NCBI GenBank assembly: GCA_905236805.1
Contig: CAJOPH010000072.1
Coordinates: 1-42,556, forward strand
Direction of reading: 5' to 3'
DNA: 42,556 nucleotides
Origin: an uncultured Eubacterium sp.
Lineage (GTDB): Bacteria > Bacillota > Clostridia > Lachnospirales > Lachnospiraceae
In this document: positions 21 through 14,657 of the stretch, one piece after another
How positions within the stretch are numbered: the stretch's first letter is position 1
Layout: each line of letters opens with the position of its first letter
Position numbers and translations under genes: made by a program
Notes under the pieces: model-generated
The model's database searches: none
Told to the model about the DNA's origin: nothing
Seen by the model: the letters and a program-made list of their open reading frames with translations, nothing else

Positions 21-111
21 AAAAAAAAAATCTATGGAACTGTAGAATAATAAGTTGTGCATATGAACGAAAAGACAAGTCAAAATGTGCAATTTATTGT
101 TCTATAGTTCC
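21..111 (-). terminator. Candidate terminator at the end of the iron/redox operon
   Basis: On the minus strand, 16-nt arms (GGAACTATAGAACAAT at 111-96 and ATTATTCTACAGTTCC at 51-36) pair with two mismatches, both of which can be G-U in RNA. They are followed by ATAGA and then ten consecutive T (plus-strand A-run 30-21). The first arm overlaps the stop codon of the ABC ATPase gene. The loop of about 44 nt is longer than usual, so this is a probable rather than textbook intrinsic terminator. Confidence 0.5.
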
Positions 112-797
112 TATTCATGAGTAATGCTCTTAAGAACCGAAAGCTCCATCGTGTATACCTTATCCGCATACTCTTTTACGCCCTCTTCATGGGTAACAAC
201 AAAAACTCCCGCTCCCTCATCCGCAGCCATCCTAAGAAGGGAAAGTACAAATCCTGTATTTTCGTCATCCAAATCTCCGGTGGGCTCATCCGCAAATATA
301 TAAGAGGGTTTTCTTACCAGGGCCCTCGCTATGGCCATCCTCCTCATCTCTCCGCCGGAAAGCTCCCCGGATGAGACATCCCTCAAATGAGCTATTTGCG
401 TCTTTTCCAACAGCCCTAATGCGTAGTTTTCCGAGTCGTTTTCAAGCTCATCATGGATTAGAAATGGGAGCATCACATTTTCCAGTACCGAAAAGTTTCC
501 CAAGGCGCTTTGTCCCTGGGGAACCACTCCCATCTTTTTTCGCCTCAGGGAGGATTGTTCATCATCAGGCAAAGAATAAATATCGATCCCATCCAAAAAG
601 ACGCACCCCGACGAAGGGGGAAGTATGCCGCATAGCATGTTCAAAAAAGTGGTCTTTCCGCTCCCGGACCTTCCCATCAGGGTGACAAACTCTCCTTCAT
701 TCAATGAAAAATCCGTTTCCTTTACGGCTACGAAGGTATTTGATTTTCCGGTTTTCCTTATGAATCTCTTTGAAATTTTTTTCGCTTCTATTCCCAT
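111..797 (-). CDS. ABC transporter ATP-binding protein (MacB/LolD type)
   Basis: 228 aa cytoplasmic ATPase of the family that energises FtsX-like permeases. Visible motifs: Walker A GRSGSGKTT near residues 42-50, signature LSGGEMRRM, Walker B with IFADEPTGDLDD, and a switch histidine in VVTHEE. It lies directly downstream of an FtsX-like permease, its obvious partner, and is the last gene of the operon. Odd feature: the start ATGGGAATAGAA is the last of five 14-bp tandem copies of the same sequence. The first copy's ATG overlaps the permease stop as TGATG and follows a good Shine-Dalgarno (GAGAGGGG), so the ancestral start was probably translationally coupled and is now 56 bp further away. 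The substrate is unknown; MacB-type machines often act on extracytoplasmic substrates mechanically rather than by import. Confidence 0.9.
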   Translation of the reverse strand: MGIEAKKISKRFIRKTGKSNTFVAVKETDFSLNEGEFVTLMGRSGSGKTTFLNMLCGILPPSSGCVFLDGIDIYSLPDDEQSSLRRKKMGVVPQGQSALGNFSVLENVMLPFLIHDELENDSENYALGLLEKTQIAHLRDVSSGELSGGEMRRMAIARALVRKPSYIFADEPTGDLDDENTGFVLSLLRMAADEGAGVFVVTHEEGVKEYADKVYTMELSVLKSITHE

Positions 798-853
798 GCC
801 CCTATTCCCATGACTCTATTCCCACGCTATTATTCCCATGTTTCTATTCCCAT
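784..853 (-). repeat. Five 14-bp tandem units duplicating a start codon
   Basis: Read on the minus strand, five back-to-back 14-nt units follow the consensus ATGGGAATAGANNC, at 853-840, 839-826, 825-812, 811-798 and 797-784. Four begin with ATG and one with GTG. The last unit is the actual start of the ATPase ORF. The first unit's ATG overlaps the TGA stop of the preceding permease gene. Because 14 is not a multiple of 3, upstream copies are out of frame with the ORF; the first copy, for example, gives a 7-codon peptide. Each unit carries GGGA about 9 nt ahead of the next ATG, which may act as a weak ribosome binding site. Confidence 0.9.
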
Positions 854-2043
854 CAGTTCCCCTCTCTTAATACGGTTCCGGCATCTATTCTGCTAAGCCG
901 TACCGCGCTTATCCCTGCGCTGATGGCCCCCGCCGACACGGACAAGAGGAAAGATCCCACAAAAATCCCCACCAGACTCCCTGCGCCAGGCATAAGGAAA
1001 GGAAGACCCATGAGATCTTCTATCAGTGTCCTAAAAGGCACCATTATCAAAAGACCGAGCAAAGCGCCCAAAAGACCCCCTATGCCTATGAGGATCCCCG
1101 CCTCTTTCATCACCAGGGAAAGAAGCTTTTTCCTTGAGGCTCCAATGACCCTCATTATGGCAAATTCCCTCTTTCGTTCATTGGTGATCATGGCAAACGA
1201 AATGATCATGATCACGGCACACAGGACCCAAAGCGCAACAATAAGAATACCTATCACAGAAGATGTTCCCTTAAGGCTCATCTGGACATCCGTTATCATA
1301 TCATCCGTCTTTACCGCCACTACTTTCCTGACGTGAAGGTTTATGTCATTTAGCACCTCATCTACCGTATATCCTTCCGCTACCTTGATAAGGACACAGG
1401 AAACCACATTGTCAGGATCTACGTCATATAGATTCATCTTTTTTCCCACCGACGATGATATGAGCTCTTTTATGGTCTCCTCGGAAGTATATACGGTAGT
1501 ATCCATGGATGTTCCTGTCTTGTCAAGCTTTGCCACCACACTACAGTCCATGTCATAAAAGGTAAGTGTATCACCGACAAAGGCATTCAGGTCATTTCCC
1601 ACCACGATGTCCATTTTTTCAAGGTCTTTTCCATAGCTTTTTAATATCCAGGGCTGAACCGTAAAGTCGCTTTCGGGTTCTATCCCTATTATTTCCACGG
1701 GTATGGAACAGCAAGAAGAACTTAACGATGCCAGGTAAAACTGCGCGGAAATATTTCCTATGCCATCTAAGGACTTTATCTTGTCATAATATTTTTCATC
1801 CATGTAAAAATAGCCGGTATTTCCCTGGAGAACTATCCCTGAAAGGTTTGCCTTGGTGGTAGCCTCGTAAGGAACTACCATGATGTCAGCCCCCAGTCTG
1901 TCCTCCAGGGAAGAAAAACCATTCTTAAGCGAAAAAATCATAAAAGACCCCGAAAGCACCGCAAAGCTAAGAAGGAAGGATATGAAACAAAGCGCAAAGC
2001 TTCTTAAGGGTTTGTTTTTTATATTGGTAAGATAGATTCTCAT
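853..2043 (-). CDS. FtsX-like ABC transporter permease
   Basis: 396 aa. The layout is MacB/FtsX-like: one N-terminal membrane helix (about residues 12-35), a large extracytoplasmic domain (about 40-260), then three C-terminal helices. The cytoplasmic segment TNERKREFAIMRVIGAS between helices 2 and 3 is the typical FtsX signature that contacts the ATPase. The following gene supplies that ATPase, and the stop overlaps the first ATG of the start-codon repeat. A DUF4418 membrane protein lies 17 bp upstream, a pairing I recall for this permease type. The extracytoplasmic domain contains a Cys-Cys pair (SSCCS). Substrate not predictable from sequence. Confidence 0.85.
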   Translation of the reverse strand: MRIYLTNIKNKPLRSFALCFISFLLSFAVLSGSFMIFSLKNGFSSLEDRLGADIMVVPYEATTKANLSGIVLQGNTGYFYMDEKYYDKIKSLDGIGNISAQFYLASLSSSCCSIPVEIIGIEPESDFTVQPWILKSYGKDLEKMDIVVGNDLNAFVGDTLTFYDMDCSVVAKLDKTGTSMDTTVYTSEETIKELISSSVGKKMNLYDVDPDNVVSCVLIKVAEGYTVDEVLNDINLHVRKVVAVKTDDMITDVQMSLKGTSSVIGILIVALWVLCAVIMIISFAMITNERKREFAIMRVIGASRKKLLSLVMKEAGILIGIGGLLGALLGLLIMVPFRTLIEDLMGLPFLMPGAGSLVGIFVGSFLLSVSAGAISAGISAVRLSRIDAGTVLREGN

Positions 2044-2060
2044 GCTATATTCTTCCCGGC

Positions 2061-2669
2061 TTATTTCTTTTTCTTCCAGTCAGATACGGCCTTTGAGATA
2101 AGGTTTGTCAGGGAGTCTACCACAGCCACGATGATTATGAGCACCGCCATTACTATGACGAATGGCCTCATATACGCATGGCATCTCATATCGGCCATCA
2201 TGCAGAGGTTTATTAGTGTTCCCGGGATAACGGCCATAAGGGCGGCCGTAGGTATCATGGCCAGCGCCAAACCTGTTTTTACCTGCTTCCCGGGGATGAT
2301 AAGGAGAAGAAGGGACTGCAGGATGAGTATGATGCTGACACAAAATACTGCCTCTTGCGCCCAATGGCAGCTCATGATATTATCAGAATTCACGGCGCAT
2401 GCGGAAAAGACAGTCTTTACCCCTGCCATAAGGATGATACTCATGATCAAAAGGGATACTCCAAGTACATATGAAACGGTCTTTTTTCTCTTTGCATCCT
2501 TTGTTTCTTCCTTTTCTTTGACCTCATCTTCGGACACATAGACCTTGGCTTCCTTGGAAAAATCCTTATTATTTTGCCCTTGTTCTTCATTGACAGAGAC
2601 GCTTTTTATGTACTCTTCTTCTGTCCCATCCCCCTGATCTGCGGGAAGATTTTTTTCGTTTTCATTCAT
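2061..2669 (-). CDS. DUF4418 family membrane protein
   Basis: 202 aa. An N-terminal cytoplasmic segment of about 65 residues is strongly charged (E/K rich). About four membrane helices follow. Conserved-looking motifs of the DUF4418 family are visible: VFSAC, MSCHWAQ, IPGTLINLCMM and MRCHAYMRP, so Cys and His lie near the membrane faces. The Shine-Dalgarno AGGAGGTG overlaps the stop of the transglutaminase gene, giving tight coupling. Members of this family are commonly encoded beside FtsX-like permeases and LolD-like ATPases, as here. No function is established to my knowledge. The repeated SCH/RCH motifs would be compatible with metal or redox chemistry, which is inference from context. Confidence 0.75.
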   Translation of the reverse strand: MNENEKNLPADQGDGTEEEYIKSVSVNEEQGQNNKDFSKEAKVYVSEDEVKEKEETKDAKRKKTVSYVLGVSLLIMSIILMAGVKTVFSACAVNSDNIMSCHWAQEAVFCVSIILILQSLLLLIIPGKQVKTGLALAMIPTAALMAVIPGTLINLCMMADMRCHAYMRPFVIVMAVLIIIVAVVDSLTNLISKAVSDWKKKK

Positions 2670-2672
2670 GTT

Positions 2673-3659
2673 TTAACACCTCCTAAACACATGATTTGAC
2701 AAATCAAAAGTGATTCCCGGATGGTTCCGCACTTCGCACTCCCACCGGAGAACAATATAATCATATTTTCCTGTTTGGTATTTATCCGTAAAATCTTTTG
2801 TCAGAAATTCGCCATCCCTTTCGTGGCTTGTGAAATTATTATCAGACTTCAGGTAATAATCATATCCGCCCGTCATTGCGTCCCAGGTAATGTCTGTATT
2901 GTAATACATCCCATCTACCTTTACAAGGTTCCATGAGTGGTATTCCTTTCCGTCATCATACCTGGCCTGCCCTGTCACTATCCTGTTATCTATCCCCGCC
3001 TCCTTGAGCATCCTATAGAAAAGAACGCAAAACCCCTGACAGACGGCGGTTTTTTTCATCAGGGCGTAATAGGCGGTGGATTTTTTGTGGTTGTAGGAAT
3101 TTTGCTTGTGAACTGTGTCATATGATACATTTTCCACTATGTAATCATGGATCCTTCTTACCTTTTGCTCATCCGTCATATCCTCCGTGAAGGAAAATGA
3201 ATCCATGACCTTTTCCACATTCAAGCTTAGTTCTTCTTCCCACAAAGGATAGGAATAATATTTCGGATAGATCTTCAAGAACTTTTTTTGGGGGTCTTTA
3301 TCCTCATATCCATATTCCAGATCATATCCTCCTATCTGGTACTTTAAATAATCCCCTTCGTCAGGCAGATCGCCATAGCTATACGCATCTTCCAACAATG
3401 AATCCGCAAGCTTTGATATTTCGGATATGTCCTTTTTTTCAGAGTAATACCTGACGGTAATATATTCAGAAAAACCTTTGAGTCCCTCCCGTAAAGTATA
3501 TACCACCTTGCTTCCATTTGAAAAATATTCAAAATATTTTTCATCGAGGTACTTATCTTCCGATGAAAGTCCTTTGCTGTCATATGGGGCACCGGAGGAT
3601 GATACTAAAAGGATTGCCGTCATTATAAAAATGATGGTCACCCTAATGGCTTTTTGCAT
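2673..3659 (-). CDS. Secreted transglutaminase-like (papain-fold) protein
   Basis: 328 aa. An N-terminal hydrophobic stretch (about residues 7-24) looks like a signal peptide or anchor, so the protein is probably exported. A transglutaminase-like core occupies roughly 160-280. The catalytic triad is recognisable: Cys in TAVCQGFC (about 207), His in EYHSWNL (about 241) and Asp in YNTDITWD (about 254). In bacteria such domains act as cysteine proteases, peptidoglycan or peptide amidases, or cross-linkers; the sequence does not choose between these. It overlaps the Fe-S subunit gene by 17 nt upstream, and its last codons hold the ribosome binding site of the next gene, so it belongs to the same transcript. 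Its role in an iron/redox operon is unexplained. Confidence 0.8.
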   Translation of the reverse strand: MQKAIRVTIIFIMTAILLVSSSGAPYDSKGLSSEDKYLDEKYFEYFSNGSKVVYTLREGLKGFSEYITVRYYSEKKDISEISKLADSLLEDAYSYGDLPDEGDYLKYQIGGYDLEYGYEDKDPQKKFLKIYPKYYSYPLWEEELSLNVEKVMDSFSFTEDMTDEQKVRRIHDYIVENVSYDTVHKQNSYNHKKSTAYYALMKKTAVCQGFCVLFYRMLKEAGIDNRIVTGQARYDDGKEYHSWNLVKVDGMYYNTDITWDAMTGGYDYYLKSDNNFTSHERDGEFLTKDFTDKYQTGKYDYIVLRWECEVRNHPGITFDLSNHVFRRC

Positions 3660-4332
3660 GTTTTCTCCAGATGGCTATTTTATTTGACCTTGCAAGCAGG
3701 TTGTCGATATTTATCTTCATGGGGCAGATATTCCTGCATGAGAGGGATTTGGCGCATTTATCATATATGTGGGTTTTGTAGTCTTTTGCCCTTTTTTCAT
3801 CATCCTCCTGAATAAACATCCTTGAAAGCGGCACCAAAAAGGCCGTCCCGTAAAAGTCCCCATCATGGTTAAATGAAGGACAGACCTCAAGGCACAGACC
3901 ACACTGGAGGCATTTTAATGACTCATAGGAATCTTCCACCGTGTTTTTTTTATCAAAAGAAGCATAATCTTTTATAAAAGCATCTGTCTCTAAGAGGTTT
4001 TTTTTCAATATGCTCCTATCTACCACGAGATCCTTTATCACGGGAAACTTCCTTAAGGGCTCTATGGTGATTACGCCCTTTTTATAATCCCCAATCTTTG
4101 CAGCGCATGCAAGGGATGGCTTTTGGTTTATCACCATGGCGCAGGCTCCGCATTTTTTCTGGAGGCAGCTGTGTTCAAAAAAGATTTTTCTTTCATCTTC
4201 AAGCCCTTTGTTTATTTCCAAAAGAACCGTGGATATCGCCATGTTAGATTCATCTGTTTCAAACTCAAATTCCTCCCAAAAAGGATCTTTGTTTTTTTCT
4301 TTTTGCCTTAAAATCCGTATCTTATACTTCAT
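3643..4332 (-). CDS. Succinate dehydrogenase/fumarate reductase-type iron-sulfur subunit
   Basis: 229 aa SdhB/FrdB family protein. The N-terminal ferredoxin domain has a [2Fe-2S] motif CX4CX2CX11C (CLQKKCGACA...LAC, about residues 55-76). The C-terminal domain has CLQCGLCLEVCP, then CAKSLSCRNICP, which together supply the cysteines for a [4Fe-4S] and a [3Fe-4S] cluster. It would wire electrons between the flavoprotein encoded just upstream and the membrane heme subunit. Gap to the flavoprotein stop is 5 nt, with a modest ribosome binding site (AAAGGTC). The cluster ligands look complete, so this should be an active electron carrier. Direction of electron flow cannot be read from sequence. Confidence 0.9.
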   Translation of the reverse strand: MKYKIRILRQKEKNKDPFWEEFEFETDESNMAISTVLLEINKGLEDERKIFFEHSCLQKKCGACAMVINQKPSLACAAKIGDYKKGVITIEPLRKFPVIKDLVVDRSILKKNLLETDAFIKDYASFDKKNTVEDSYESLKCLQCGLCLEVCPSFNHDGDFYGTAFLVPLSRMFIQEDDEKRAKDYKTHIYDKCAKSLSCRNICPMKINIDNLLARSNKIAIWRKHAKSH

Positions 4333-4337
4333 GACCT

Positions 4338-5927
4338 TTAATCTATTTCCTGAAGGGAAATGTTTATTTCTTCATCCCTGTATTCTGACACCGTTTTTTT
4401 CCGGTATTCTTCCCTGGTCTTTGGGTAATCGATCCTGTAATGAGCCCCCCTGCTTTCCTTTCGCAAGATGGCTGACTTTATCATGGCTTTTCCCAAGGTT
4501 AGTTTCTTTTTATCCATATTTTTACAGGCTTTTTCTTGAAGAAGCTCCATCTGGTTAAGACCTTCCTGGAGGGAGGATTCATCCCTTACTATGTCAAGAC
4601 ACTTTCTTAGTATTTCACCTGACCTTGCGGATATTTCGGGGTCATCTGTCCCATAGCTTAGGGGCTTTATTTCCTTATCCGAATCCCTCGAAAAATCATC
4701 CCAGGCGTCATTTTCCATGATGGTCTGTGCGGCCCTCTTACCCCCGTATATGGCCCCCATGGTGGAATTCCCCCCCAGCCTGTTTGCCCCATGGTAAAGG
4801 GATGTGGCTTCGCCTGATGCATAGAGGTTTTTTATGTTTGTCCTGTGCATTTCATCCGTGTCTATCCCTCCCATGAAATAATGAATTCCGGGGGATACTT
4901 TGACGGGTGTTTTTTTAGGGTCAATGGATAGGTAATCCATGATCTCATCCCTTAGGTCGGGGAGCTTTTCCTTCCAGGTCTTTTTGGAAAGACCCCTCAT
5001 GTCAAGGTAGATGGGGCTTTCATTTTCCTCATGGGATATAAAATACATCTCCCTCGATACCACATCCCTTGGCATAAGGTTCTTTAGCTCCGGATATTTT
5101 TCTTCCATGAAATAATATGGCTTTTTATCTTTTTCCACATAGAGCCTTCCGCCTTCCCCCCTGGCCGCCTCGGATATAAGGCACCTTTTCCCACTTATAC
5201 CGAAGGTGGTGGGATGGTACTGTATCATCTCAAGGTTTGAAAAACGAACCCCGCAGGAAAAAAGAATGGCCTGTACGAAGGCATTGTTCTGGGTGGTGCC
5301 GGTGGTAAATCCGGGAAACAGGCCGTTTAACCCCCCGCAGGCTATGATCACAGGTCCCCTTAAAAGAATGGGGCTGTGGGAAGGGGCGTATTCATCCGCA
5401 ATCCATGCTCCAAGGCAGGTATCCTTTTTTCCTTCGGGAAAAACAAGCCCCAAAAAGCAATGAGCGGAAAACCTCCTTACAAGCCCCATTTTTTCATATT
5501 TCCTGCACTCATCCGCAAGCGTATTTACAAGAATCCTTCCTGTTGAGCTCTTCGCGTAAGCCGTCCTTCGTTTCTTCTGTCCCCCGAAATACCTTTGCAC
5601 TATGCGCCCGGATTCCATATTAAAGGGCATCCCAATGGAATGGAGGTACTCTATTACCGAAGGGGCGTTTTGGGTAAGGTTTCTTACGGCCTTTGGGTTT
5701 GCAAGATATACCCCGCCTTTCATTGTATCATCGTAATGATCTTCTATGGTGTCTCCATCCCCCATGGTATCAAGGACCGCATTTATCCCTCCTTCCGCAA
5801 GGGTCGACTGGGAACGGTAGGAGTCCTGACGGGAAACAAGGTTTACGTGTATGTTGTGTTCCGCAAGGCTAATGGCGCAAGATAGGCCTGAGAGCCCCGC
5901 CCCTATTATGTTTGCTACCTTATCCAT
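4338..5927 (-). CDS. Fumarate reductase/succinate dehydrogenase-type flavoprotein, non-covalent FAD predicted
   Basis: 529 aa from the ATG at 5927. The track's TTG at 5960 adds 11 residues before MDKVANIIGAG, has no ribosome binding site, and lies deep in the upstream gene. FAD-binding GAGLSGLSCA is at residues 9-18. Catalytic-domain motifs include QYHPTTFG, SEAARGEGG, MPRDVVSREM and GIHYFMGGIDTD, plus the C-terminal GANRLGGNS FAD motif. Key oddity: the segment RSQSTLAEGGIN has Gln40 where SdhA/FrdA proteins carry the His that covalently binds FAD (RSHS..A.GGIN). L-aspartate oxidase (NadB) also lacks this His and is a possible alternative. The adjacent cytochrome b and Fe-S genes favour a membrane Sdh/Frd-like complex. 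The natural substrate may not be fumarate. Confidence 0.85.
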   Translation of the reverse strand: MDKVANIIGAGLSGLSCAISLAEHNIHVNLVSRQDSYRSQSTLAEGGINAVLDTMGDGDTIEDHYDDTMKGGVYLANPKAVRNLTQNAPSVIEYLHSIGMPFNMESGRIVQRYFGGQKKRRTAYAKSSTGRILVNTLADECRKYEKMGLVRRFSAHCFLGLVFPEGKKDTCLGAWIADEYAPSHSPILLRGPVIIACGGLNGLFPGFTTGTTQNNAFVQAILFSCGVRFSNLEMIQYHPTTFGISGKRCLISEAARGEGGRLYVEKDKKPYYFMEEKYPELKNLMPRDVVSREMYFISHEENESPIYLDMRGLSKKTWKEKLPDLRDEIMDYLSIDPKKTPVKVSPGIHYFMGGIDTDEMHRTNIKNLYASGEATSLYHGANRLGGNSTMGAIYGGKRAAQTIMENDAWDDFSRDSDKEIKPLSYGTDDPEISARSGEILRKCLDIVRDESSLQEGLNQMELLQEKACKNMDKKKLTLGKAMIKSAILRKESRGAHYRIDYPKTREEYRKKTVSEYRDEEINISLQEID

Positions 5928-6466
5928 AAAATATAATACCCAATGAAGCCTGCCGCGCAAAACAGCATGACCACCGACAAAACGAACAAAATATCCCCCG
6001 AGTATTTTCTAAGGGAAGGTATCCCCAGGGAAATAAGGAGAGGGTTGATATTTGAAATAATATGAATGGCCAGGCATACAACAAAAACGAGGGAGATGAC
6101 CAGTTCAAAGGAACCAAACAAATTCAACCTGAAAAAACCATCCTCGCTTCTCCCCGCAAATATAAGTACGTGAAAAACCATGAAAAGGATAATGGCAAAT
6201 CCCGAAACCCTCCTTGCCCAAAAGACAAGGTTTTCCCTGAAATAATATACACCGCTTTTTTTTATGGTTCTTAAGGAATCCGCGGTAAGCTTTGCCCCTA
6301 TCAGTATATGGATAAATGCCAGGATCACAAAAAGGTTTGTGGCCACAATAAGCAGCATGCTTCCCCCTTCCATGATATTAAGCATCATGAATGCACCTGA
6401 TATGGCATGAATCAGGAAAGTCAGCATCATAGCCCCCGTGATTATTGAATTTATCCTTCTCATCAT
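5915..6466 (-). CDS. Cytochrome b-type membrane anchor of the Sdh/Frd-like complex
   Basis: 183 aa with five predicted membrane helices and almost no soluble part. Histidines lie inside helices 1 to 4 (His20, His53, His99, His135), the arrangement of di-heme, single-subunit anchors such as Wolinella FrdC, so two b hemes are predicted. It overlaps the upstream gene by 4 nt (ATGA) and the flavoprotein gene by 13 nt, so the subunits are translationally coupled in the order anchor, flavoprotein, Fe-S protein. It would carry electrons across or within the membrane between a quinone, or another carrier, and the cytoplasmic subunits. Assignment rests on topology, histidines and neighbours; similarity to any named family is not obvious by eye. 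Confidence 0.75.
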   Translation of the reverse strand: MMRRINSIITGAMMLTFLIHAISGAFMMLNIMEGGSMLLIVATNLFVILAFIHILIGAKLTADSLRTIKKSGVYYFRENLVFWARRVSGFAIILFMVFHVLIFAGRSEDGFFRLNLFGSFELVISLVFVVCLAIHIISNINPLLISLGIPSLRKYSGDILFVLSVVMLFCAAGFIGYYILWIR

Positions 6467-6969
6467 TTGATCCCTTCTGTTTCGGATACGTCTATTTTAA
6501 TTATGCCGTCTATTCCTTCAAGGGTCTTTGCCCCATACATATCATAATACTCCTTGGACATGATGATGATATCAAACCGCTTAGCTTCCGCCTTTGAAAG
6601 CATCATGGTCGCTTCCTTGATATACACCTTCATCTGGTTTTCGGGAAGGTGGGACATAAAGCTTTCAGCCATGGTCTCTCCCTGCTCATCACCCTTTGCC
6701 ACATAAGCCCTTATGTCCTCAAAGAGAAATGAAATCTCTTCTCCTTTGAAAAAGCAAATCCAGGTCTTTAGGTTATCTTCGTCAGGATGCATGTCTTTAT
6801 TTATAAAGACCACAAATTTTCCCGAAGGCTCATCCAGTGCCACAGATGCCGAAGATACTGCATCCTCCCCCGAAACAAGGGTTTGGAAAAAGGGGGAGGT
6901 AAGAAATGGAACCCCCAGCATTATGAAAAGGGACAAAAAAACAATGATTATATGCTTGATCAGGTTCAT
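6463..6969 (-). CDS. Membrane-anchored protein of unknown function in the redox operon
   Basis: 168 aa, not recognised. One N-terminal hydrophobic segment (about residues 5-30, MNLIKHIIIVFLSLFIML) acts as signal or anchor. The rest is a soluble, mildly acidic domain predicted outside the cell, with alternating strand-like and helix-like stretches (KFVVFINKDM, FDIIIMSKEYY). The only cysteine is in TWICFF, so no obvious heme or Fe-S motif is present. It lies between the FMN-binding lipoprotein (8-nt gap) and the cytochrome b gene (4-nt overlap), which strongly suggests it is an accessory part of that redox assembly. The segment around MSKEYYDMYG faintly recalls solute-binding folds, but I would not assign one. 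Confidence 0.65.
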   Translation of the reverse strand: MNLIKHIIIVFLSLFIMLGVPFLTSPFFQTLVSGEDAVSSASVALDEPSGKFVVFINKDMHPDEDNLKTWICFFKGEEISFLFEDIRAYVAKGDEQGETMAESFMSHLPENQMKVYIKEATMMLSKAEAKRFDIIIMSKEYYDMYGAKTLEGIDGIIKIDVSETEGIK

Positions 6970-6977
6970 AATACATA

Positions 6978-7436
6978 TTATTCTTCTGCCTGGGAGAGGG
7001 CATCTTCCACGGCTTCCTTAAACTCTTCGTAATTGATGGTGGCTCCCGATATGGCGTCAACCCCTGAAAGGGAGCCTGTTTCTACCAGCTGCGCCGCATA
7101 TTCATCGCAGGCGGCCACAGCCTTTTGGGCCTTGGTGTAATAATCCTGGTTTGCCACGGCTCCGCCTTCCTTGCCATATTCTGAATCCTTCAAAGTTCCA
7201 TCCAGCATATAGGTTTGGTAGGTACACTCTGATATCGCACCGTCCTTGACAGTGATATTTACGATGCCGTACCCATTTCCCTCTTCAGAATCATCTTCCC
7301 CCTCTTGCGTATGCTCCTGGCTTTTTCCTTCATAGGATCCATCCACATAAGATTTGGGCTCTGATGAGCCGCAGGCAAAGAAAATACAAGAAGAGATGGC
7401 AACTGTCAATATAAAGGTTAAATTCTTTTTAAGCAT
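6978..7436 (-). CDS. FMN-binding domain lipoprotein, predicted covalent flavinylation
   Basis: 152 aa. A lipoprotein signal peptide ends at IFFAC, giving lipidated Cys22. A short acidic linker follows, then a small FMN-binding domain (PF04205 type, about residues 55-152). The motif DAISGATIN matches the S/T-G-A-S/T site where ApbE attaches FMN through a phosphoester, so Thr133 is the predicted attachment site. No apbE is in the window; it would have to lie elsewhere. Such proteins carry electrons on the outer face of the membrane. The gene follows the ABC ATPase of the iron system and precedes the cytochrome b/flavoprotein genes, so it is the natural bridge between the two halves of the operon. 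The ribosome binding site (AGGAG, 6 nt spacing) supports this start. Confidence 0.88.
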   Translation of the reverse strand: MLKKNLTFILTVAISSCIFFACGSSEPKSYVDGSYEGKSQEHTQEGEDDSEEGNGYGIVNITVKDGAISECTYQTYMLDGTLKDSEYGKEGGAVANQDYYTKAQKAVAACDEYAAQLVETGSLSGVDAISGATINYEEFKEAVEDALSQAEE

Positions 7437-7465: not shown

Positions 7466-8179
7466 TTATTCATTACCTTTTTCGGTAAGCGTTATCTTTT
7501 TTATTTTTCCCGTAAAGTTTTCATTTACTATTTCGTGGTCATATTTACCGGACCTTAAAACCATAGTCCTTTGCGCCACCTCGGCCACCTCCGGGTTATG
7601 TGTGACCACTACCAGCGTAGTCCCTTCCGCATGAAGCTTCCTAAAGAGCTCGACCACTATCTCCTCGTTCTTCTCATCGAGGTTTCCCGTGGGCTCATCT
7701 GCCAAAATGATCTCCGGATAATTTATAAGGGCTCTTGCCACGCAAACCCTCTGCTGCTCTCCTCCCGAAAGCTGGGAGGGAAGGTGGTGTGCCCTGTCCA
7801 AAAGTCCTACCCTGTCCAAAGCCTCCAGGGCTTCTTTTTCATCGGGCACGCTGTGGTAATACTGGGATACCATGACATTTTCCACGGCCGTTAAGTATTG
7901 GATCAAATGGAACTGCTGGAATATAAGGCCTATCTTATCCCTCCTTATGGCGGTAAGCTGCTTCGAGCTAAGCTTCGTAAGATCCTCACCGTCCAGAAGA
8001 ACCTCTCCTTCTGATGCATGATCCATACAGCCTATGATATTCATCATGGTACTTTTCCCCGAACCGGAAGGTCCCATGATGGAGACCCACTCTCCCTTTT
8101 CAACGGAAAAGTTCACATGGTCTAAGGCATACAGTTTTCCGTATATCTTGCAAACGTCTTTTAATTCCAATAAACTCAT
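7466..8179 (-). CDS. ABC transporter ATP-binding protein of the P19-type iron system
   Basis: 237 aa. Walker A GPSGSGKSTMM (about 36-46), Q-loop in LIFQQFHLI, signature LSGGEQQRV (about 140), Walker B IILADEPTGNLDE and switch His in VVTHNPE are all present. It belongs to the MacB/LolD group that pairs with FtsX-like permeases, two of which are encoded directly upstream. A short C-terminal extension (about residues 215-237) is lysine rich. The position FTR1, P19, DUF2318, permease, permease, ATPase matches the gene order of the Campylobacter p19 iron system and of related Gram-positive loci, so it probably powers that system. The gap to the permease stop is 2 nt and the ribosome binding site (GGGAGAG) spans that stop. 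Confidence 0.92.
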   Translation of the reverse strand: MSLLELKDVCKIYGKLYALDHVNFSVEKGEWVSIMGPSGSGKSTMMNIIGCMDHASEGEVLLDGEDLTKLSSKQLTAIRRDKIGLIFQQFHLIQYLTAVENVMVSQYYHSVPDEKEALEALDRVGLLDRAHHLPSQLSGGEQQRVCVARALINYPEIILADEPTGNLDEKNEEIVVELFRKLHAEGTTLVVVTHNPEVAEVAQRTMVLRSGKYDHEIVNENFTGKIKKITLTEKGNE

Positions 8180-8181
8180 GT

Positions 8182-9384
8182 CTACTCTCCCTTCAAAACT
8201 AACGCGGGATCTATCAGGGTGGCACTCCTTATGGGAAGAATGCAGGCTATGGCCGTAACCGCCACGGACGATAGCACGGATATCGGTATGAGCAGCGGCC
8301 TGAATACTATGGAGCTGCTAAAAACATTTATCGATACTTCCTGTGCAAACAAAAATCCAAGACCTGCGCCCAAAAGCCCTCCCAGGGCTCCAAGAAGGAT
8401 GTTTTCCCCCATGAATTCCCATATGATCTCGGTATTGGTCGCGCCAAGCGCCTTCTTTAATCCTATCTCCCTGCGCCTTTCAACCACCACGGCCATCATC
8501 GTGGTAGCCACACATATCATGGTAAGGGCAAGCACCACTATGGTGACAAGAAGCACCAAGGACTGAAGCTTTCCCAATACCGTGGTCTCTGATGCGGTAA
8601 CCCTCTTTATGAGCCTTGCGTCAATGGCAGGGACACTGTCTGATATCTCCTTGGCATATGCACTTAGCTGCTCGGAATCGGATGATACGGAAACCTCCGC
8701 AAGATCATATGTAGTATCATCCCCTGTCAAAGTCTCCATATCTCCCAAGGTCATATAAAGATAATCTTCTTCCGAACCTCCTGTCTCAAGGATCGCGCTG
8801 CACTTGAGTGTAATCTCATTGTCAAAGACTATCTCTTCCTCATCGGATACCTCATCAGAATCTTCATAGGAATAATCCTCCGAAACCAAAGCGTTGCCCT
8901 CTTCCGTATCAGGCGCAAAGGTGATGGTAACATCTTCTCCCTGCTTTATGCCATAGGTATCTGCTACCGTGGCACCCACCATGATCTCCCCGTCGCCGGC
9001 AGGCCACTCTCCGTCTACTGACCAGTAGGGGGATGTCTTTTCGGCTCCCTCCATATCGGTAGCCGCCGCAAGTACGGGCGTGGAATTGATCCTTACCGTC
9101 TCATACCTGTATGGGGCAACCCCCACCACCTCATCTTCCGGAATGAGGCAGATCCCATCATCTATGTCGCTTTGGGAAAAATCTTCCCCGGAGGCCACAA
9201 AGAGCATATTTGCCCCGTAGTTTCTAAACTCCGCGCCCATCTGCCTTGGAACATCATAATATATGGTGATAAGTCCGCATAATATGGTAGCCCCTATAGC
9301 TATGGCAAGAAGAGCCACGAGCATCCTGGACCTTCTCCTTATCAGGGAGGCTGTGATCATCCTAAAATACATCTTACGCTTCAT
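8182..9384 (-). CDS. FtsX-like permease 2 of the P19-type iron system
   Basis: 400 aa from the ATG at 9384. The track's GTG at 9393 lies inside the Shine-Dalgarno GGGAGGTGA, so it is unlikely. Topology: one N-terminal helix (about 17-40), an extracytoplasmic domain with an acidic low-complexity stretch (YSYEDSDEVSDEEE, about 190-205), and three C-terminal helices with the FtsX-type loop VVERRREIGLKKALGATN. The acidic stretch could bind metal ions, which is speculation. The ribosome binding site overlaps the stop of permease 1, so the two are made in a coupled way and likely form a heterodimer. The closest known context is Cj1661/Cj1662 of the Campylobacter p19 locus. Confidence 0.88.
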   Translation of the reverse strand: MKRKMYFRMITASLIRRRSRMLVALLAIAIGATILCGLITIYYDVPRQMGAEFRNYGANMLFVASGEDFSQSDIDDGICLIPEDEVVGVAPYRYETVRINSTPVLAAATDMEGAEKTSPYWSVDGEWPAGDGEIMVGATVADTYGIKQGEDVTITFAPDTEEGNALVSEDYSYEDSDEVSDEEEIVFDNEITLKCSAILETGGSEEDYLYMTLGDMETLTGDDTTYDLAEVSVSSDSEQLSAYAKEISDSVPAIDARLIKRVTASETTVLGKLQSLVLLVTIVVLALTMICVATTMMAVVVERRREIGLKKALGATNTEIIWEFMGENILLGALGGLLGAGLGFLFAQEVSINVFSSSIVFRPLLIPISVLSSVAVTAIACILPIRSATLIDPALVLKGE

Positions 9385-9389
9385 GTCCG

Positions 9390-10688
9390 TCACCTCCCAT
9401 GCAGCACTTCGGCAGGTCTAAGGCGAAGCAGCATCCTTATGGCGGGTATGCTGCCAAGCAAAGTCACAAGTATCACCAAAACCGCCACTATGGGAATCAC
9501 CATCGGCCTCATGGTGATGGATGACCCAAAGACCGTAAGCCCTATTATCTGCGCAAAGCCATATCCCGCAAAAAAGCCTGCCACACCGCCTAATATAGCA
9601 GAAATAATGATTTCTGTCAATACCAAACCGGTGACCGCGCCATTTTGGGCCCCTATGGCCTTCATAAGCCCTATCTCGCCCGCCCTCTCCATGACGGATG
9701 CGGTAACGAGGTTACAAATGCCAAGGGCAGCCCCTATCATGGAAAGTATGGTGATAAGGATCATAAGCAGCTGAGTCTTTTCAAGGATGGAGCCTTCTGA
9801 GTCCGCCACCTGGCGTACGGCCGATGCCACAGAATCCGTGATAACTTCCTGAATCTGGTAACAGATGGCGCTGACATAGGCCGTGCAGTACCAGGTCTCA
9901 TACTGGCTGATGGTAAGGGATGAAGGATCCTTTGCGGCCTTTTCGGAAAGCTCGTTGTCAGGCGTGGTAAGCGCTGAGACTTCAATATTATCAACACACC
10001 CATCAAGCCCGCTAAGGGCCTGCGCCTGATCTAATGTGACATAAATATTGTCATCCTCTTCTCCACCTGCGTCAAATATCCCAACCACGGTGAATGTTTC
10101 GGAAGACTTAAGACCTTTAAGGCTTATGCTATCTCCCACGGAGAGACCTTCTTTTTCGGCAACCGCTGTTCCTGCCATGCAGGGATTTTTGGCAGAAGAA
10201 GCCTGCTCATCTATCCACTCTCCGTCTGTTACCTCCCACCAGCTCCGCAGGCTCTGCATTCCCGCATCAAGGCTCTCGCCCGTTGGAAGATCCATGTGGT
10301 GGTTAAACCACGCCCCAATCACATTGACATCGTTTCCCGATTCATCAGTGACGGAAGCGTTAAGGAAAGGGGAATAGTCCACTATGTTAAACGCCCAGAA
10401 TATGGTCTTTATATTTCCCAGCTCATCTTCCTTGAGGTATGAACCTATCTCGCCTCCACCAGTGTCATCTTCTATGTCATAAAGGTCTGATATGACGGAT
10501 GAGTCCTTGGGAACCACGTTGATATTTGCCCCATAGGTCTTTAGCTCCTGGTTCACCTTGTCCCCTACATCCAGCATGACCGACAGCATCGCCGTAGCCA
10601 ATGATGAACCCAGCGCAATGGTGAAAGCAATCATGAGCATCTTTTTCCACTGCCTGAAAAAAGCACCCCTGATCATTCTGATAAACAT
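9390..10688 (-). CDS. FtsX-like permease 1 of the P19-type iron system
   Basis: 432 aa. It has an N-terminal helix (about 14-35), a large extracytoplasmic domain (about 40-310) and three C-terminal helices. The cytoplasmic loop MERAGEIGLMKAIGAQNG is diagnostic of FtsX/MacB permeases. The start is supported by AGGAGG 5 nt upstream. The gene lies 16 nt after the DUF2318 gene. The domain carries two cysteine-containing segments (SAKNPCMAG, LDGCVDN, and CTAYVSAICYQ) that could form disulfides outside the cell. Together with permease 2 and the ATPase it should form the ABC part of the iron uptake or iron-redox machinery. Confidence 0.88.
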   Translation of the reverse strand: MFIRMIRGAFFRQWKKMLMIAFTIALGSSLATAMLSVMLDVGDKVNQELKTYGANINVVPKDSSVISDLYDIEDDTGGGEIGSYLKEDELGNIKTIFWAFNIVDYSPFLNASVTDESGNDVNVIGAWFNHHMDLPTGESLDAGMQSLRSWWEVTDGEWIDEQASSAKNPCMAGTAVAEKEGLSVGDSISLKGLKSSETFTVVGIFDAGGEEDDNIYVTLDQAQALSGLDGCVDNIEVSALTTPDNELSEKAAKDPSSLTISQYETWYCTAYVSAICYQIQEVITDSVASAVRQVADSEGSILEKTQLLMILITILSMIGAALGICNLVTASVMERAGEIGLMKAIGAQNGAVTGLVLTEIIISAILGGVAGFFAGYGFAQIIGLTVFGSSITMRPMVIPIVAVLVILVTLLGSIPAIRMLLRLRPAEVLHGR

Positions 10689-10704: not shown

Positions 10705-11955
10705 TCATTTGAACTCTGATTCGTATTCCAATAGTCCTTCTATCGGGACTATTATCATCCCATCCGATATGGAGTAATCTATCACTATCGGGTTGCACCC
10801 GCCCTTAAATCCTATCGTTGATATATTCATTACTACGTCACAGAGCTTGCAAACTACCTGTCCGTCCCTTTCATAATATCCCGTCTCACCGCAGATATCG
10901 CAGGCATCAAGCCCCACTCCGTAGGAAGAAGATGACTTTTGTATGACTATGAACCTTATATTGGTGCCGTCTTCCGTTTCATAGGCAAACCTGTGAAGAT
11001 GCCCGTCAGAGACCTGCTCAAAGGATACATATACGTTTTCATCATCCACATCCGCCGCGTCCTCAACGGGAGAAAGCTCCACCACCTTTGTATCATAGGC
11101 CTTTACCACCGTCATGTTCAAAACCACAAGCACAAAGCAAACGATAGCCGTCGTAGCCCACCTTCTCGCACTCCTCCACTTCGCCTTTATCTTCCTGTGT
11201 TCGGCAGGGTTTGACCAGGGCTCTTTTTCCATGGAAAAGCTCCTTGCCCACAAAATCATGGGAATCGCCAAAGCTACCGCCATGGTCAGGTAAATAAAAT
11301 AATCAGAGTGATTCGATGAAAAGACCGTTATCGAAAAAACCATATGATTTGATTCTATTATCCTCTTCGCGAGCATAATGGACAAACATACCGTAACCTG
11401 CCTTAGAGCGTTGATAAGGAGGGTTAGGAAAAACAAAACAGATACTATCTTCAGGGAAAGCTTGTTTGCTCCCTTGTACACCGAAAACCCCGCCACCACG
11501 GCAAGGATTATCCCGCAAAGATAACCTATCGTCTTGTATAGGTAGTCCGTGGAGATAACGCTCGAAGATGTCTCAAGGAAAGTATATGGGTAAGCTATCA
11601 CATCAGGCAACGCATATAAGATGAGCGTGGCCAGCAAAAGCGCCAAAATAACAGCCGATATGACGCCTATTATTCTTATCTTCTTGACCGGTGTAAATGA
11701 CAAGATGGTAAACAGCACAAAAAGGCATAAAGATACCGAAAAAATCCTCAGGTTCCATATACCCGTATCTATCCTGTTCGTGGCATTTTTCATGTAGGAC
11801 ATAATGAAAGCCAAAACAAGTCCCAATCCTATCCCGCATAAATGAATCACCATCCCCTTGGGCATGTTTTTCAACTTCACGAAGGACAGCGAAAGACAGG
11901 TGACTATCACTACGGATATAAGGTTTTGTGATGTGGAAATAAGGTAGCTAAGCAT
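10705..11955 (-). CDS. DUF2318 domain membrane protein (BfeB/Cj1660-like)
   Basis: 416 aa. About eight membrane helices fill residues 1-250, another helix lies near 265-285, and a soluble extracytoplasmic C-terminal domain follows. That domain holds CDICGETGY...CKLC (Cys352, 355, 369, 372) plus a later Cys387 in GFKGGCNP, the hallmark of DUF2318 (PF10080). In this family the domain always travels with FTR1 and P19 proteins. The CXXC pairs are likely to bind a metal or Fe-S-like center, or to act as a dithiol redox site, feeding or accepting electrons outside the membrane. The start has a GGGGGGAAG ribosome binding site. The gene is separated from P19 by 126 nt that contain two overlapping hairpins, so its expression may be tuned separately. 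Confidence 0.85.
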   Translation of the reverse strand: MLSYLISTSQNLISVVIVTCLSLSFVKLKNMPKGMVIHLCGIGLGLVLAFIMSYMKNATNRIDTGIWNLRIFSVSLCLFVLFTILSFTPVKKIRIIGVISAVILALLLATLILYALPDVIAYPYTFLETSSSVISTDYLYKTIGYLCGIILAVVAGFSVYKGANKLSLKIVSVLFFLTLLINALRQVTVCLSIMLAKRIIESNHMVFSITVFSSNHSDYFIYLTMAVALAIPMILWARSFSMEKEPWSNPAEHRKIKAKWRSARRWATTAIVCFVLVVLNMTVVKAYDTKVVELSPVEDAADVDDENVYVSFEQVSDGHLHRFAYETEDGTNIRFIVIQKSSSSYGVGLDACDICGETGYYERDGQVVCKLCDVVMNISTIGFKGGCNPIVIDYSISDGMIIVPIEGLLEYESEFK

Positions 11956-12081: not shown

Positions 12082-12756
12082 TTACCACTCCTGCGGTGTG
12101 TACTCCCATCCCTCAAATGTATAGGTAAGGTTTCCATCTGCAAAATAATCATCGAATGATCCCCCGGGACCTGTCTCAGAGTCCGTGTGAAGAAGGTATC
12201 CATTCTCACCGGGGCTGTGGATGGTGATGGTAAGGTCATATGTACCTGCATCGGGAAGGGCGATGTTTGCGCCATAGTGCGGACCGTCCGACGCACTCAT
12301 GGTCATGAACGTACCCTCTGCGGCAACATTTCCGTCCTGATCGGCTACGGAATAGTCTACCGTAAGGTAAGGTACCCAGTCGCCCACGCCAAAACCAAGG
12401 GTGTTTTCAAGGGCAGAGATATCAGCCTCAAGATGGATGTCAAAGTCATCCGTACCAATGGTGGTGTCCCCGCCATTGGACATGGGTACCGGCTGGAAAT
12501 ATACAGCCGAAAGGTTGATAAATCCTACTTCCTCATCCTCAAATATGGGATACTCCGTAAATCCTGACTCTTCACCCGGAGCAGCTGCGCCCGCGTCAGC
12601 GGTCTCTGTGGTAGCGGCGTCCGTGGTGGTATCAGCAGTCTCCTGCGTCTGCTCCTGATTGCTTGCGCTCTCAGAACTACCGCTCCCGCAGCCAACAAGT
12701 GCCATAGAAGCTACGCACGCAGCCGTAAGAAGAGCCATTAAATTCTTCTTTCTCAT
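12082..12756 (-). CDS. P19/Tp34-family iron-binding lipoprotein
   Basis: 224 aa from the ATG at 12756. The ATG at 12774 in the track overlaps the Shine-Dalgarno AGGAGG, so the second ATG, 9 nt after it, is preferred. Lipobox LVGC gives lipidated Cys23. A Ser/Thr/Ala/Glu-rich linker (about 24-65) leads to the P19 domain (PF10634 type). Family hallmarks: the segment around FDIHLEADI, GVGDWVPYLTVDY, and MTMSASDGPHYGANI, which supply Met, Glu and His ligands for copper and a ferric or ferrous iron site in known homologues. It should hold iron, possibly with copper, on the outer membrane face and hand it to the FTR1 permease encoded just upstream. BfeO and FetP are comparable proteins. Confidence 0.9.
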   Translation of the reverse strand: MRKKNLMALLTAACVASMALVGCGSGSSESASNQEQTQETADTTTDAATTETADAGAAAPGEESGFTEYPIFEDEEVGFINLSAVYFQPVPMSNGGDTTIGTDDFDIHLEADISALENTLGFGVGDWVPYLTVDYSVADQDGNVAAEGTFMTMSASDGPHYGANIALPDAGTYDLTITIHSPGENGYLLHTDSETGPGGSFDDYFADGNLTYTFEGWEYTPQEW

Positions 12757-12860
12757 TTTCTTAATCCTCCTCATTTACAAAAATATCTAAGTGATAAAAT
12801 ATATCATAAAGCCTCTTTTAGGAAGGCATCATGAACTTTTTTTTATATCTGTCAAAGTCA

Positions 12861-14657
12861 TCAAGCCGCCTCCGCAGCCTCTTTTTCCATTTGTTCCTTA
12901 AGCTTTTTATTTCTCTTAAGCTGCCAGATAAATACTATTATGGTGACCACAAGAAGTATTAGCTGTGGGAAGACTGTCTGGTCACAGGGGTATACCCCAA
13001 GTATCTCAAGCACGGAGTTGGAGGGGATCCATGATACCAAAGGCGATGATGTCATGGTGATGACATCCCCCTCTATAAGCTCCTTTATTCCCGATCCAAG
13101 GAAGGCTATAGACATGATAAACATCAGTATGCTGGTTCCCAGGAAAAATGGTTTCAACGGAAGCTTCAGGCTAAAGAGCCTGATGGCAATGTAAACAAAG
13201 ACGAGGCACACGCACCCTACCCCAAAGCCTGCCCATACCATGTTGATGTCGGTTCCTAAAAGCATGGGCTGGAAGAAAAGTATCACTTCCGCCCCCTCCC
13301 TGTACACCGCAAGGAAGGCCGTAAACGCCAACGCAAAAACCGAACCTTTTTCGGAAGACGATTTTACTTTTGACTTTATATACGCACTCCAGGCCTCGGA
13401 CTCTGACTTCGACACCATCCAGTTTGATACCCAGTAAAGAACCACAACGGCTATAAGGGCCGTAACGCCTTCTATCACCTCCTGGGAAGCGGAATTTGCA
13501 AGCTTTAGCTGATTTAGCGCCCATGCGGATATGAAGGATGCGACTATCCCAAGGACAGCCCCCCAGTATACAGGATGAACCAGTTTTTTTTGCTTTTCCT
13601 TATCCTCCGTGGTCTTAAGAAGATATGCCAAAATGGCTCCCACCACAAGGATGGCCTCAAAACCCTCCCTAAGGATGATGGTAAAGCAGGCTATAAACGT
13701 GGCTACCGCGGCAGACCTGGTGGTTCCTGAAGAGCCCTCATCAGCCGCAGACGTATCAGATGCATCGTCTTCTTCGGTGGTACCATCCAGTATATGCGCA
13801 TCGGTGCGGAGCATGGATTTTAAGGTGTCGCATTCCGAAACAAACTCATCCTCCGTACCGTTATTTTTTGTGACAGACTTACACGATGAAAACTGAAGCT
13901 CCATTTCGGACTTTCTGGCTCCTGAGATATAGCCCATGGCCACCCTCTCGAAGCCTGTGGTCTCATAGTATCCATAGTAGGCATCGTTTATGCAGTCATA
14001 GGCGCCTTCCATGTCACCGTCCGCAAACTTTACCTTGCCTGCTTCTATGACCTCGTCCATGGCATCCACCACATCTATCCATGTCACGGTCTCAATACCC
14101 GCATCGGCAAGATATTCATCCCATGTGGAATAATATTTTGATGCAAAAAGCTCTGTCGCCAGGGTATCTTCTGTCTCCTCGGTCTCCGTACCGGAAGTCC
14201 CGTCCAAAACATTTGCATCCTCATGGAGCATGGAGGATAATGTATCAACCTCAGTGTTAAACTCATCTACGGAGCCATTTTTCTTGGTTACGGATTTGCA
14301 GGACGAAAACTGAAGCTCCATCTCGGACTTTCTGGCCCCTGAGATATAGCCCATGGCCACCCTCTCAAAACCCGTGGTCTCATAGTATCCATAATAGGCA
14401 TCATTTACACAAGCATAGGCTCCCTCAGCATCCCCCGCCGCATACTTTTCCTTTGCACTGTCAAGCACGGCATCCATGGCATCTACCACTATGTTCCATG
14501 TGGCATCCATCGTGCCGGTACCTTCCTGATATTCGCTCCAGGTGGAATAATAATCCCCGTCTGCCAAAGCCGACACGGGGAAGGATAATCCCAAAAGCAA
14601 GGCAGCACCCAGAACAAAACAAGAGATTTTTTTGACAGAATATTTATACAATTTCAT
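12861..14657 (-). CDS. FTR1-family iron permease with duplicated N-terminal extracytoplasmic module
   Basis: 598 aa. A signal peptide (about 1-32) is followed by two copies of a module of about 140 residues (about 35-170 and 175-305). Each opens with YYSTW.EY and contains DAYYGYYETTGFERVAMGYI. The permease domain (about 320-598) has seven or so helices with the two iron-binding REXXE motifs, REGFE (about 333) and REGAE (about 452), so it should be active in iron transport. The C-terminus is Lys/Glu rich. Over at least 40 residues the two modules are identical in protein while the DNA differs at 7 of about 103 positions, all silent. It is the first gene of the operon, with GAGGA 8 nt before the ATG. 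The N-terminal modules may collect iron for the channel (inference). Confidence 0.93.
   Translation of the reverse strand: MKLYKYSVKKISCFVLGAALLLGLSFPVSALADGDYYSTWSEYQEGTGTMDATWNIVVDAMDAVLDSAKEKYAAGDAEGAYACVNDAYYGYYETTGFERVAMGYISGARKSEMELQFSSCKSVTKKNGSVDEFNTEVDTLSSMLHEDANVLDGTSGTETEETEDTLATELFASKYYSTWDEYLADAGIETVTWIDVVDAMDEVIEAGKVKFADGDMEGAYDCINDAYYGYYETTGFERVAMGYISGARKSEMELQFSSCKSVTKNNGTEDEFVSECDTLKSMLRTDAHILDGTTEEDDASDTSAADEGSSGTTRSAAVATFIACFTIILREGFEAILVVGAILAYLLKTTEDKEKQKKLVHPVYWGAVLGIVASFISAWALNQLKLANSASQEVIEGVTALIAVVVLYWVSNWMVSKSESEAWSAYIKSKVKSSSEKGSVFALAFTAFLAVYREGAEVILFFQPMLLGTDINMVWAGFGVGCVCLVFVYIAIRLFSLKLPLKPFFLGTSILMFIMSIAFLGSGIKELIEGDVITMTSSPLVSWIPSNSVLEILGVYPCDQTVFPQLILLVVTIIVFIWQLKRNKKLKEQMEKEAAEAA
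13888..14407 (-). repeat. Direct repeat inside the FTR1 gene, offset 417 bp
   Basis: Plus-strand 13888-13990 and 14305-14407 align without gaps at an offset of 417 bp (139 codons), with 7 mismatches that leave the encoded protein unchanged. These are the most conserved cores of the two N-terminal modules. The coordinates span both copies. The repeat could recombine to delete or add one module in frame. Confidence 0.85.

Follow-up and report, generated by a model that had tools for sequence, protein, structure and literature searches.

Among the described systems closest to the locus presented here are fumarate reductases with non-covalently bound FAD on the one hand and the P19/FTR1 type of iron uptake on the other. 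When FAD is held non-covalently, the flavin potential is lower by about 90-150 mV (PMC9557727), and neither E. coli FrdA nor yeast SDH oxidises succinate once the FAD-linking His is mutated and FAD is non-covalent (PMC2680327, PMC9557727). A natural counterpart is the Wolinella 8-methylmenaquinol:fumarate reductase (MFR), in which Ala occupies the FAD site, FAD is non-covalent, and fumarate is reduced while succinate is not oxidised (PMC2680327). With respect to iron, transport by FTR1-type permeases is assumed to require the oxidation of Fe(II) (PMC11966278), a need that is puzzling in strict anaerobes, and P19 clusters with FMN-binding proteins have been described as having no core carrier that moves electrons across the membrane (PMC8238504). 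A conserved membrane-spanning redox complex encoded in the same operon makes the question of the redox partner of P19/FTR1-type uptake directly testable. A literature search of openly licensed papers found no prior description of this Gln-type complex or of its linkage to P19 operons.

The window, i.e. the whole stretch of 42,556 nucleotides analysed here (contig CAJOPH010000072.1 of an uncultured Eubacterium sp.), encodes in the interval 4338-6466 a flavoprotein and a cytochrome b, with the gene of an Fe-S subunit just beyond it. The sequence-only reading that preceded this analysis had not given a strand; these genes, and all other genes of the window located below, lie on the minus strand. 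The FrdA/SdhA-like flavoprotein (529 aa; 5927..4338, ATG to stop) was assigned by its Pfam domains FAD_binding_2 and Succ_DH_flav_C, by alignment and by phylogeny, and inspection of its sequence revealed no apparent signal peptide and no N-terminal extension. Codon 40 (5810-5808) is CAG and falls exactly in the alignment column of the covalent-FAD His of SdhA and FrdA, as that reading had proposed, so that Gln40 stands where type B complex II has this His. All SdhA/FrdA references carry His in this column (E. coli SdhA and FrdA, B. subtilis, Rhodococcus, Acinetobacter and 27 SdhA from the sampled phylum), 12 methanogen TfrA carry Gly, and NadB proteins carry Ser, Asn or Asp. Scanning genomes of bacteria and archaea yielded 80 related loci, and Gln occupies the column in 80 out of 80, with no His orthologue found; 82 of the 83 alignment rows show Gln, and the remaining row, with Asp, is the NadB of the host itself. 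Since Gln is present in all related loci, neither an error in sequencing nor a chance substitution explains it, and judged from these alignments Gln40 is a fixed trait of the family. The remaining catalytic motifs, earlier claimed to be kept, are invariant or near-invariant across the loci (QYHPT, EAARGEGG, RD, HYFMGG, HGANRLG and KESRGAH), and both the dicarboxylate-site residues and the FAD fold are present. By analogy with the mutant and natural enzymes mentioned above, FAD in the Gln-type flavoprotein is very likely non-covalent, which would make the family a second natural route to the loss of covalent FAD (Gln, type B, cytosolic) besides MFR.

The flavoprotein remained under every NCBIfam cut-off, scoring 375 bits against 855 for SdhA, 309 against 453 for NadB, 304 against 718 for TfrA and 227 against 1100 for the MFR model. 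Phylogenetic analysis (IQ-TREE, mixture model) showed the Gln proteins to be monophyletic (support 100/98) and sister to Bacillus-type SdhA (100/100), with NadB and TfrA on separate branches. A NadB identity was rejected on the basis of the score, the separate clade, the different partners and the presence of a separate NadB elsewhere in the host genome; the neighbours that recur across the loci are cytochrome, Fe-S and iron-uptake genes and not nadA/nadC. Of the two outcomes that the sequence-only reading had named as refuting it, His orthologues and a place inside the NadB clade, neither was thus observed. TfrA was rejected by score and by its separate clade, and MFR (SdhABE) by score, by the type-B cytochrome and by the missing N-terminal extension (Tat signal). 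A phylum-wide sample returned chiefly ordinary SdhA and NadB-like matches, and a plasmid collection contained distant SdhA/NadB relatives only (best row 34%).

Other carriers of Gln-type genes extend to archaea. Gut Methanobrevibacter and Methanosphaera encode a Gln-type frdA-frdB pair (loci L070, L073, L074, L075 and L081), with a cytochrome-like gene in L070, and in Methanobrevibacter the pair is additional to a true TfrA. Because the true TfrA is encoded separately in methanogens, the Gln-type copies were rejected as TfrA, and their transfer from bacteria is likely. The metagenome-assembled genome (MAG) SRR8387714_bin.37 holds two Gln-type copies, one within an iron operon and one outside (L029, L038). 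Two deep-branching Gln-type proteins with about 40% identity (L084, L085) have an Fe-S partner and no recognisable cytochrome within their short loci, and a 57%-identical protein lies on a contig filed as Sphaerochaetaceae (spirochaete; L082), for which mis-binning or transfer is possible.

Cytochrome b and Fe-S partners had likewise been claimed as kept, and the conservation of their cofactor ligands bears this out. The FrdB/SdhB-like Fe-S subunit (229 aa; 4332..3643) scores above the cut-off of TIGR00384, contains Fer2_3 and has PDB matches to Wolinella FrdB; its 11 Cys, for a 2Fe-2S and two further clusters, are invariant across 77 sequences. The cytochrome gene (6466..5915), the stop of which overlaps the start of the flavoprotein gene, encodes five predicted transmembrane helices, with the invariant His20, His53, His99 and His135 on the first four. 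Pfam, NCBIfam and PDB sequence searches with the cytochrome gave no match, nor did Pfam and NCBIfam searches with the membrane-anchored protein discussed below, and fold comparison was therefore needed for both. The AlphaFold (AF2) model of the cytochrome (pLDDT 94) matched best to chain C of the Chloroflexus SDH (prob 1.00) and second to Wolinella FrdC (prob 0.99, with a weak E-value). In Wolinella FrdC, one pair of heme ligands lies toward the outer face and one pair toward the cytosol, and by the helix positions His20 and His99 would correspondingly point to the outer face and His53 and His135 to the cytosol. Based on the modelled fold and the four His residues, the complex is of type B and predicted to be diheme.

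The genomic context, overlooked by the sequence-only reading, which in its entirety was partly supported, places the cytochrome-frdA-frdB genes at the end of an FTR1/P19 iron-uptake operon on the same strand. The operon contains the components of the P19/FTR1 system, starting with an FTR1/FetM-like iron permease (12861..14657; PF03239, TIGR00145), just upstream of which a terminator-like stem is found (14788-14749), and continuing with a P19/FetP-like iron-binding lipoprotein (12082..12774; PF10634; invariant His114, 166 and 196), an FtrD/FetA-like membrane protein with a Cys-rich domain (10705..11955; PF10080; five invariant Cys), two FtsX/MacB-like permeases resembling FetB/FetC (permease 2, 9390..10688, assigned by position and relatives; permease 1, 8182..9393) and a FetD-like ABC ATPase (7466..8179), the latter two assigned by NCBIfam search and conserved order. 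Downstream of frdB, further genes (111-3659) recur in relatives, namely those for a transglutaminase-like protein (2673..3659; PF01841), a membrane protein with a DUF4418 domain and conserved Cys (2061..2669; PF14387), and a second FtsX/ABC pair consisting of a third FtsX-like permease (853..2043; PF02687) and a second ABC ATPase (111..797; PF00005). A Fur-box scan of the window gave no convincing site (7 sites versus 3.7 expected), and an Rfam search of the window gave no match.

The FTR1/P19 arrangement with the complex is repeated in 30-40 other loci. Counting only loci with room for the respective gene, the cytochrome was present in 63 of 73, the Fe-S gene in 74 of 76, the FMN protein in 40 of 61, P19 in 31 of 43 and FTR1 in 30 of 42. 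The same gene order is present in the isolate Catonella morbi ATCC 51271, and hence is not an artefact of MAGs. Among 245 Catonella relatives, nine encode P19, ten the Gln-type protein and five both, four of those with the genes close together (Fisher p = 4e-6, which is optimistic because the genomes are related); four of the nine P19 genomes do not have the Gln-type complex. Several hosts possess the complex and no P19 gene, so that iron is not its sole context. Overall, the gene distribution indicates a link between the complex and the iron operon that is strong, though not obligatory.

Between the ABC ATPase and the cytochrome, the operon encodes two proteins with flavinylation motifs. The first is an FMN-binding lipoprotein (6978..7436; PF04205), in which lipobox and motif are conserved and the motif, DAISGAT, follows the canonical D-x-x-[ST]-G-A-[ST]; ApbE is encoded in the genome of the window host. 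The second is a membrane-anchored extracytoplasmic protein of 168 aa (6463..6969), which directly behind its transmembrane helix carries the degenerate motif DAVSSAS, with the Gly of the ApbE consensus absent. Across its family, the motif D-x-x-[STA]-x-A-[ST] is full in 14 of 48 sequences, and the Gly is missing in 28. A Gly-to-Ala exchange in such a motif left about 50% of flavinylation (PMC12052999), and by analogy flavinylation of the anchor protein is possible. In Succiniclasticum, an ApbE gene lies behind the complex, which is headed by a DAVSSAT homologue of the anchor protein; flavin-motif protein, cytb, frdA(Gln), frdB and ApbE form one operon there (L079:8913-13535, L080), adjoined on the opposite strand by a P19/FTR1 cluster and TonB-ExbBD-like genes. 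In fold comparison, the 168-aa protein matched best to PDB 3noh (RUMGNA_00914 of Ruminococcus gnavus), a solved structure with unassigned function, for which the operon context suggests an iron or redox role. In Gemmiger/Faecalibacterium loci (L066, L077 and L078), the complex lies beside an ArsR-like regulator and a gene resembling heavy-metal P-type ATPases, and upstream of the cytochrome a DUF6921 protein is encoded whose flavinylation motif is full (DAISGAT/DGLTGAT).

Neighbouring genes can also give a hint to the substrate. In Erysipelotrichaceae (L040, L043 and L045), a gene for aspartate ammonia-lyase (aspA), an enzyme that produces fumarate, directly follows cytb-frdA(Gln)-frdB, and P19 is absent from these genomes. 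Taken together with the invariant substrate-site residues, these neighbours make fumarate the likely substrate. A change to another dicarboxylate-like substrate, with fumarate chemistry lost, would have parallels in the wider superfamily, where NadB, urocanate reductases and methacrylate reductases act on changed substrates; however, all substrate-site residues tested are retained here and aspA neighbours occur, and we regard such a change as very improbable. Fumarate reduction is thus likely the reaction of the complex. The suggestion of the sequence-only reading that the enzyme runs only as a reductase is well supported by analogy, given the published precedents and the aspA neighbours, whereas its other suggestion, a different acceptor, was too loose, the substrate site being unchanged. 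What looks altered, as far as gene content indicates, is the electron partner, since the host lacks genes of quinone synthesis and iron and flavin proteins are encoded in the operon, a point which that reading missed.

Electrons might also run outward, from a cytosolic donor over FAD and the hemes to extracytoplasmic flavins and further to Fe(III), which would be reduced for uptake. Such a ferric reductase would be in line with the proposal that the FMN-binding proteins of P19 clusters are akin to assimilatory iron reductases (PMC8238504) and with the proposal of the C. jejuni authors that FetMP is supplied with reducing power by a relay (PMC10783030). We nevertheless consider it unlikely, as the substrate site is of the fumarate/succinate type, non-covalent FAD stops succinate oxidation in the precedents, the aspA neighbours indicate fumarate consumption, and Pfam/NCBIfam searches found no NAD(P)H-oxidoreductase partner domain in the complex.

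Known quinone synthesis requires UbiA, which was found in 14 of 14 control genomes and was missing, one weak sub-threshold hit aside, from the window genome (99% complete), from its genus mates and from the other bacterial hosts tested. MqnA was absent in the window genome, and cytochrome bd in all hosts tested including the window host. Given the absence of UbiA, and of MqnA in the window host, hosts of the Gln-type complex most likely make no quinone, suggesting that complex II can function in bacteria without quinone synthesis, including abundant gut and rumen species. Use of exogenous quinone by these hosts is possible by analogy, as Faecalibacterium, which has a fumarate reductase and no menaquinone genes, responds to added menaquinone (Fenn et al., PMC5738691), and one locus with the Gln-type complex (L077) is from Faecalibacterium. 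This response suggests a quinol donor, and accordingly a quinol:fumarate reductase fed by menaquinone scavenged from neighbouring bacteria is a serious rival to a flavin or iron donor, also because the cytochrome resembles quinone-reactive subunits of SQR/QFR in its fold. The position in the iron operon would then reflect co-regulation at iron limitation, or a role in providing the iron system with reduced quinol. Yet most of the conserved polar residues of the cytochrome lie toward the cytosol, a conserved quinone site on the outer side is not obvious, flavin-motif genes directly adjoin those of the complex, and the window host is without UbiA, MqnA and cytochrome bd, even if scavenging requires none of them; on balance, we hold scavenged menaquinol to be a somewhat unlikely donor.

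Instead, we tentatively favour, with a little less than even confidence, a complex II variant that only reduces fumarate, contains non-covalent FAD and receives its electrons from extracytoplasmic flavoproteins or iron. The donor identity and the direction of electron flow are uncertain. In the proposed mechanism, the cytosolic flavoprotein and Fe-S subunits would be seated on the type-B diheme cytochrome, through which electrons would cross the membrane. On the outside, either P19/FtrD-held iron or the flavins carried by the FMN lipoprotein would be the source, from which electrons could pass via the membrane-anchored flavin-motif protein to the two hemes, and then through the three Fe-S clusters and FAD to fumarate. 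With the donor outside and fumarate reduced inside, this flow would, from established bioenergetics, favour a membrane potential. The complex would in this way serve as electron sink for the oxidation-dependent FTR1 permease in an anaerobe without oxygen or quinones of its own. A more far-reaching version, in which complex II is quinone-independent, has flavinylated surface proteins and ferrous iron as its direct electron donors, and acts as anaerobic oxidase partner of the FTR1 permease, appears to us conceivable but somewhat unlikely. The favoured fumarate-reducing complex fits the transmembrane-carrier gap in the P19-FMN clusters and may be the missing membrane wire that leads from the iron machinery outside to fumarate inside the cell.

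In comparison with known systems, the Gln-type complex is a variant of complex II and not a new kind of system. It shares with Bacillus SdhCAB, Wolinella FrdCAB and the Chloroflexus SDH the order cytochrome-flavoprotein-FeS, the five-helix diheme cytochrome fold and the three Fe-S clusters, and differs from these type-B SQR/QFR by Gln at the site of the FAD-linking His throughout the family, by a shorter flavoprotein and cytochrome, by hosts that most likely lack quinone synthesis and by its linkage to iron and flavin proteins. The natural loss of the His is common to the MFR (SdhABE) of Wolinella and Campylobacter, with its non-covalent FAD and fumarate-only activity (PMC2680327); MFR, however, carries Ala, reaches the periplasm by Tat export and includes a subunit of type E (heterodisulfide-reductase-like), whereas the complex described here carries Gln, is cytosolic and has a type-B anchor predicted to be diheme. 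Methanogen thiol:fumarate reductase TfrAB likewise combines a flavoprotein without His with a fumarate-type site, but TfrA has Gly at this position and forms a separate clade, while the Gln-type complex has a membrane cytochrome and an Fe-S subunit of 229 aa without the HdrD-like extension, in contrast to the 488-position TfrB model. Finally, the window operon resembles the P19/FTR1 uptake systems (C. jejuni fetMP-fetABCDEF, FtrABCD and the FMN-binding Gram-positive form) in FTR1, P19, FtrD/FetA, two FtsX permeases, ABC ATPase and FMN lipoprotein (PMC8238504, PMC10783030), and departs from them in that a whole cytochrome-frdA-frdB module is added.
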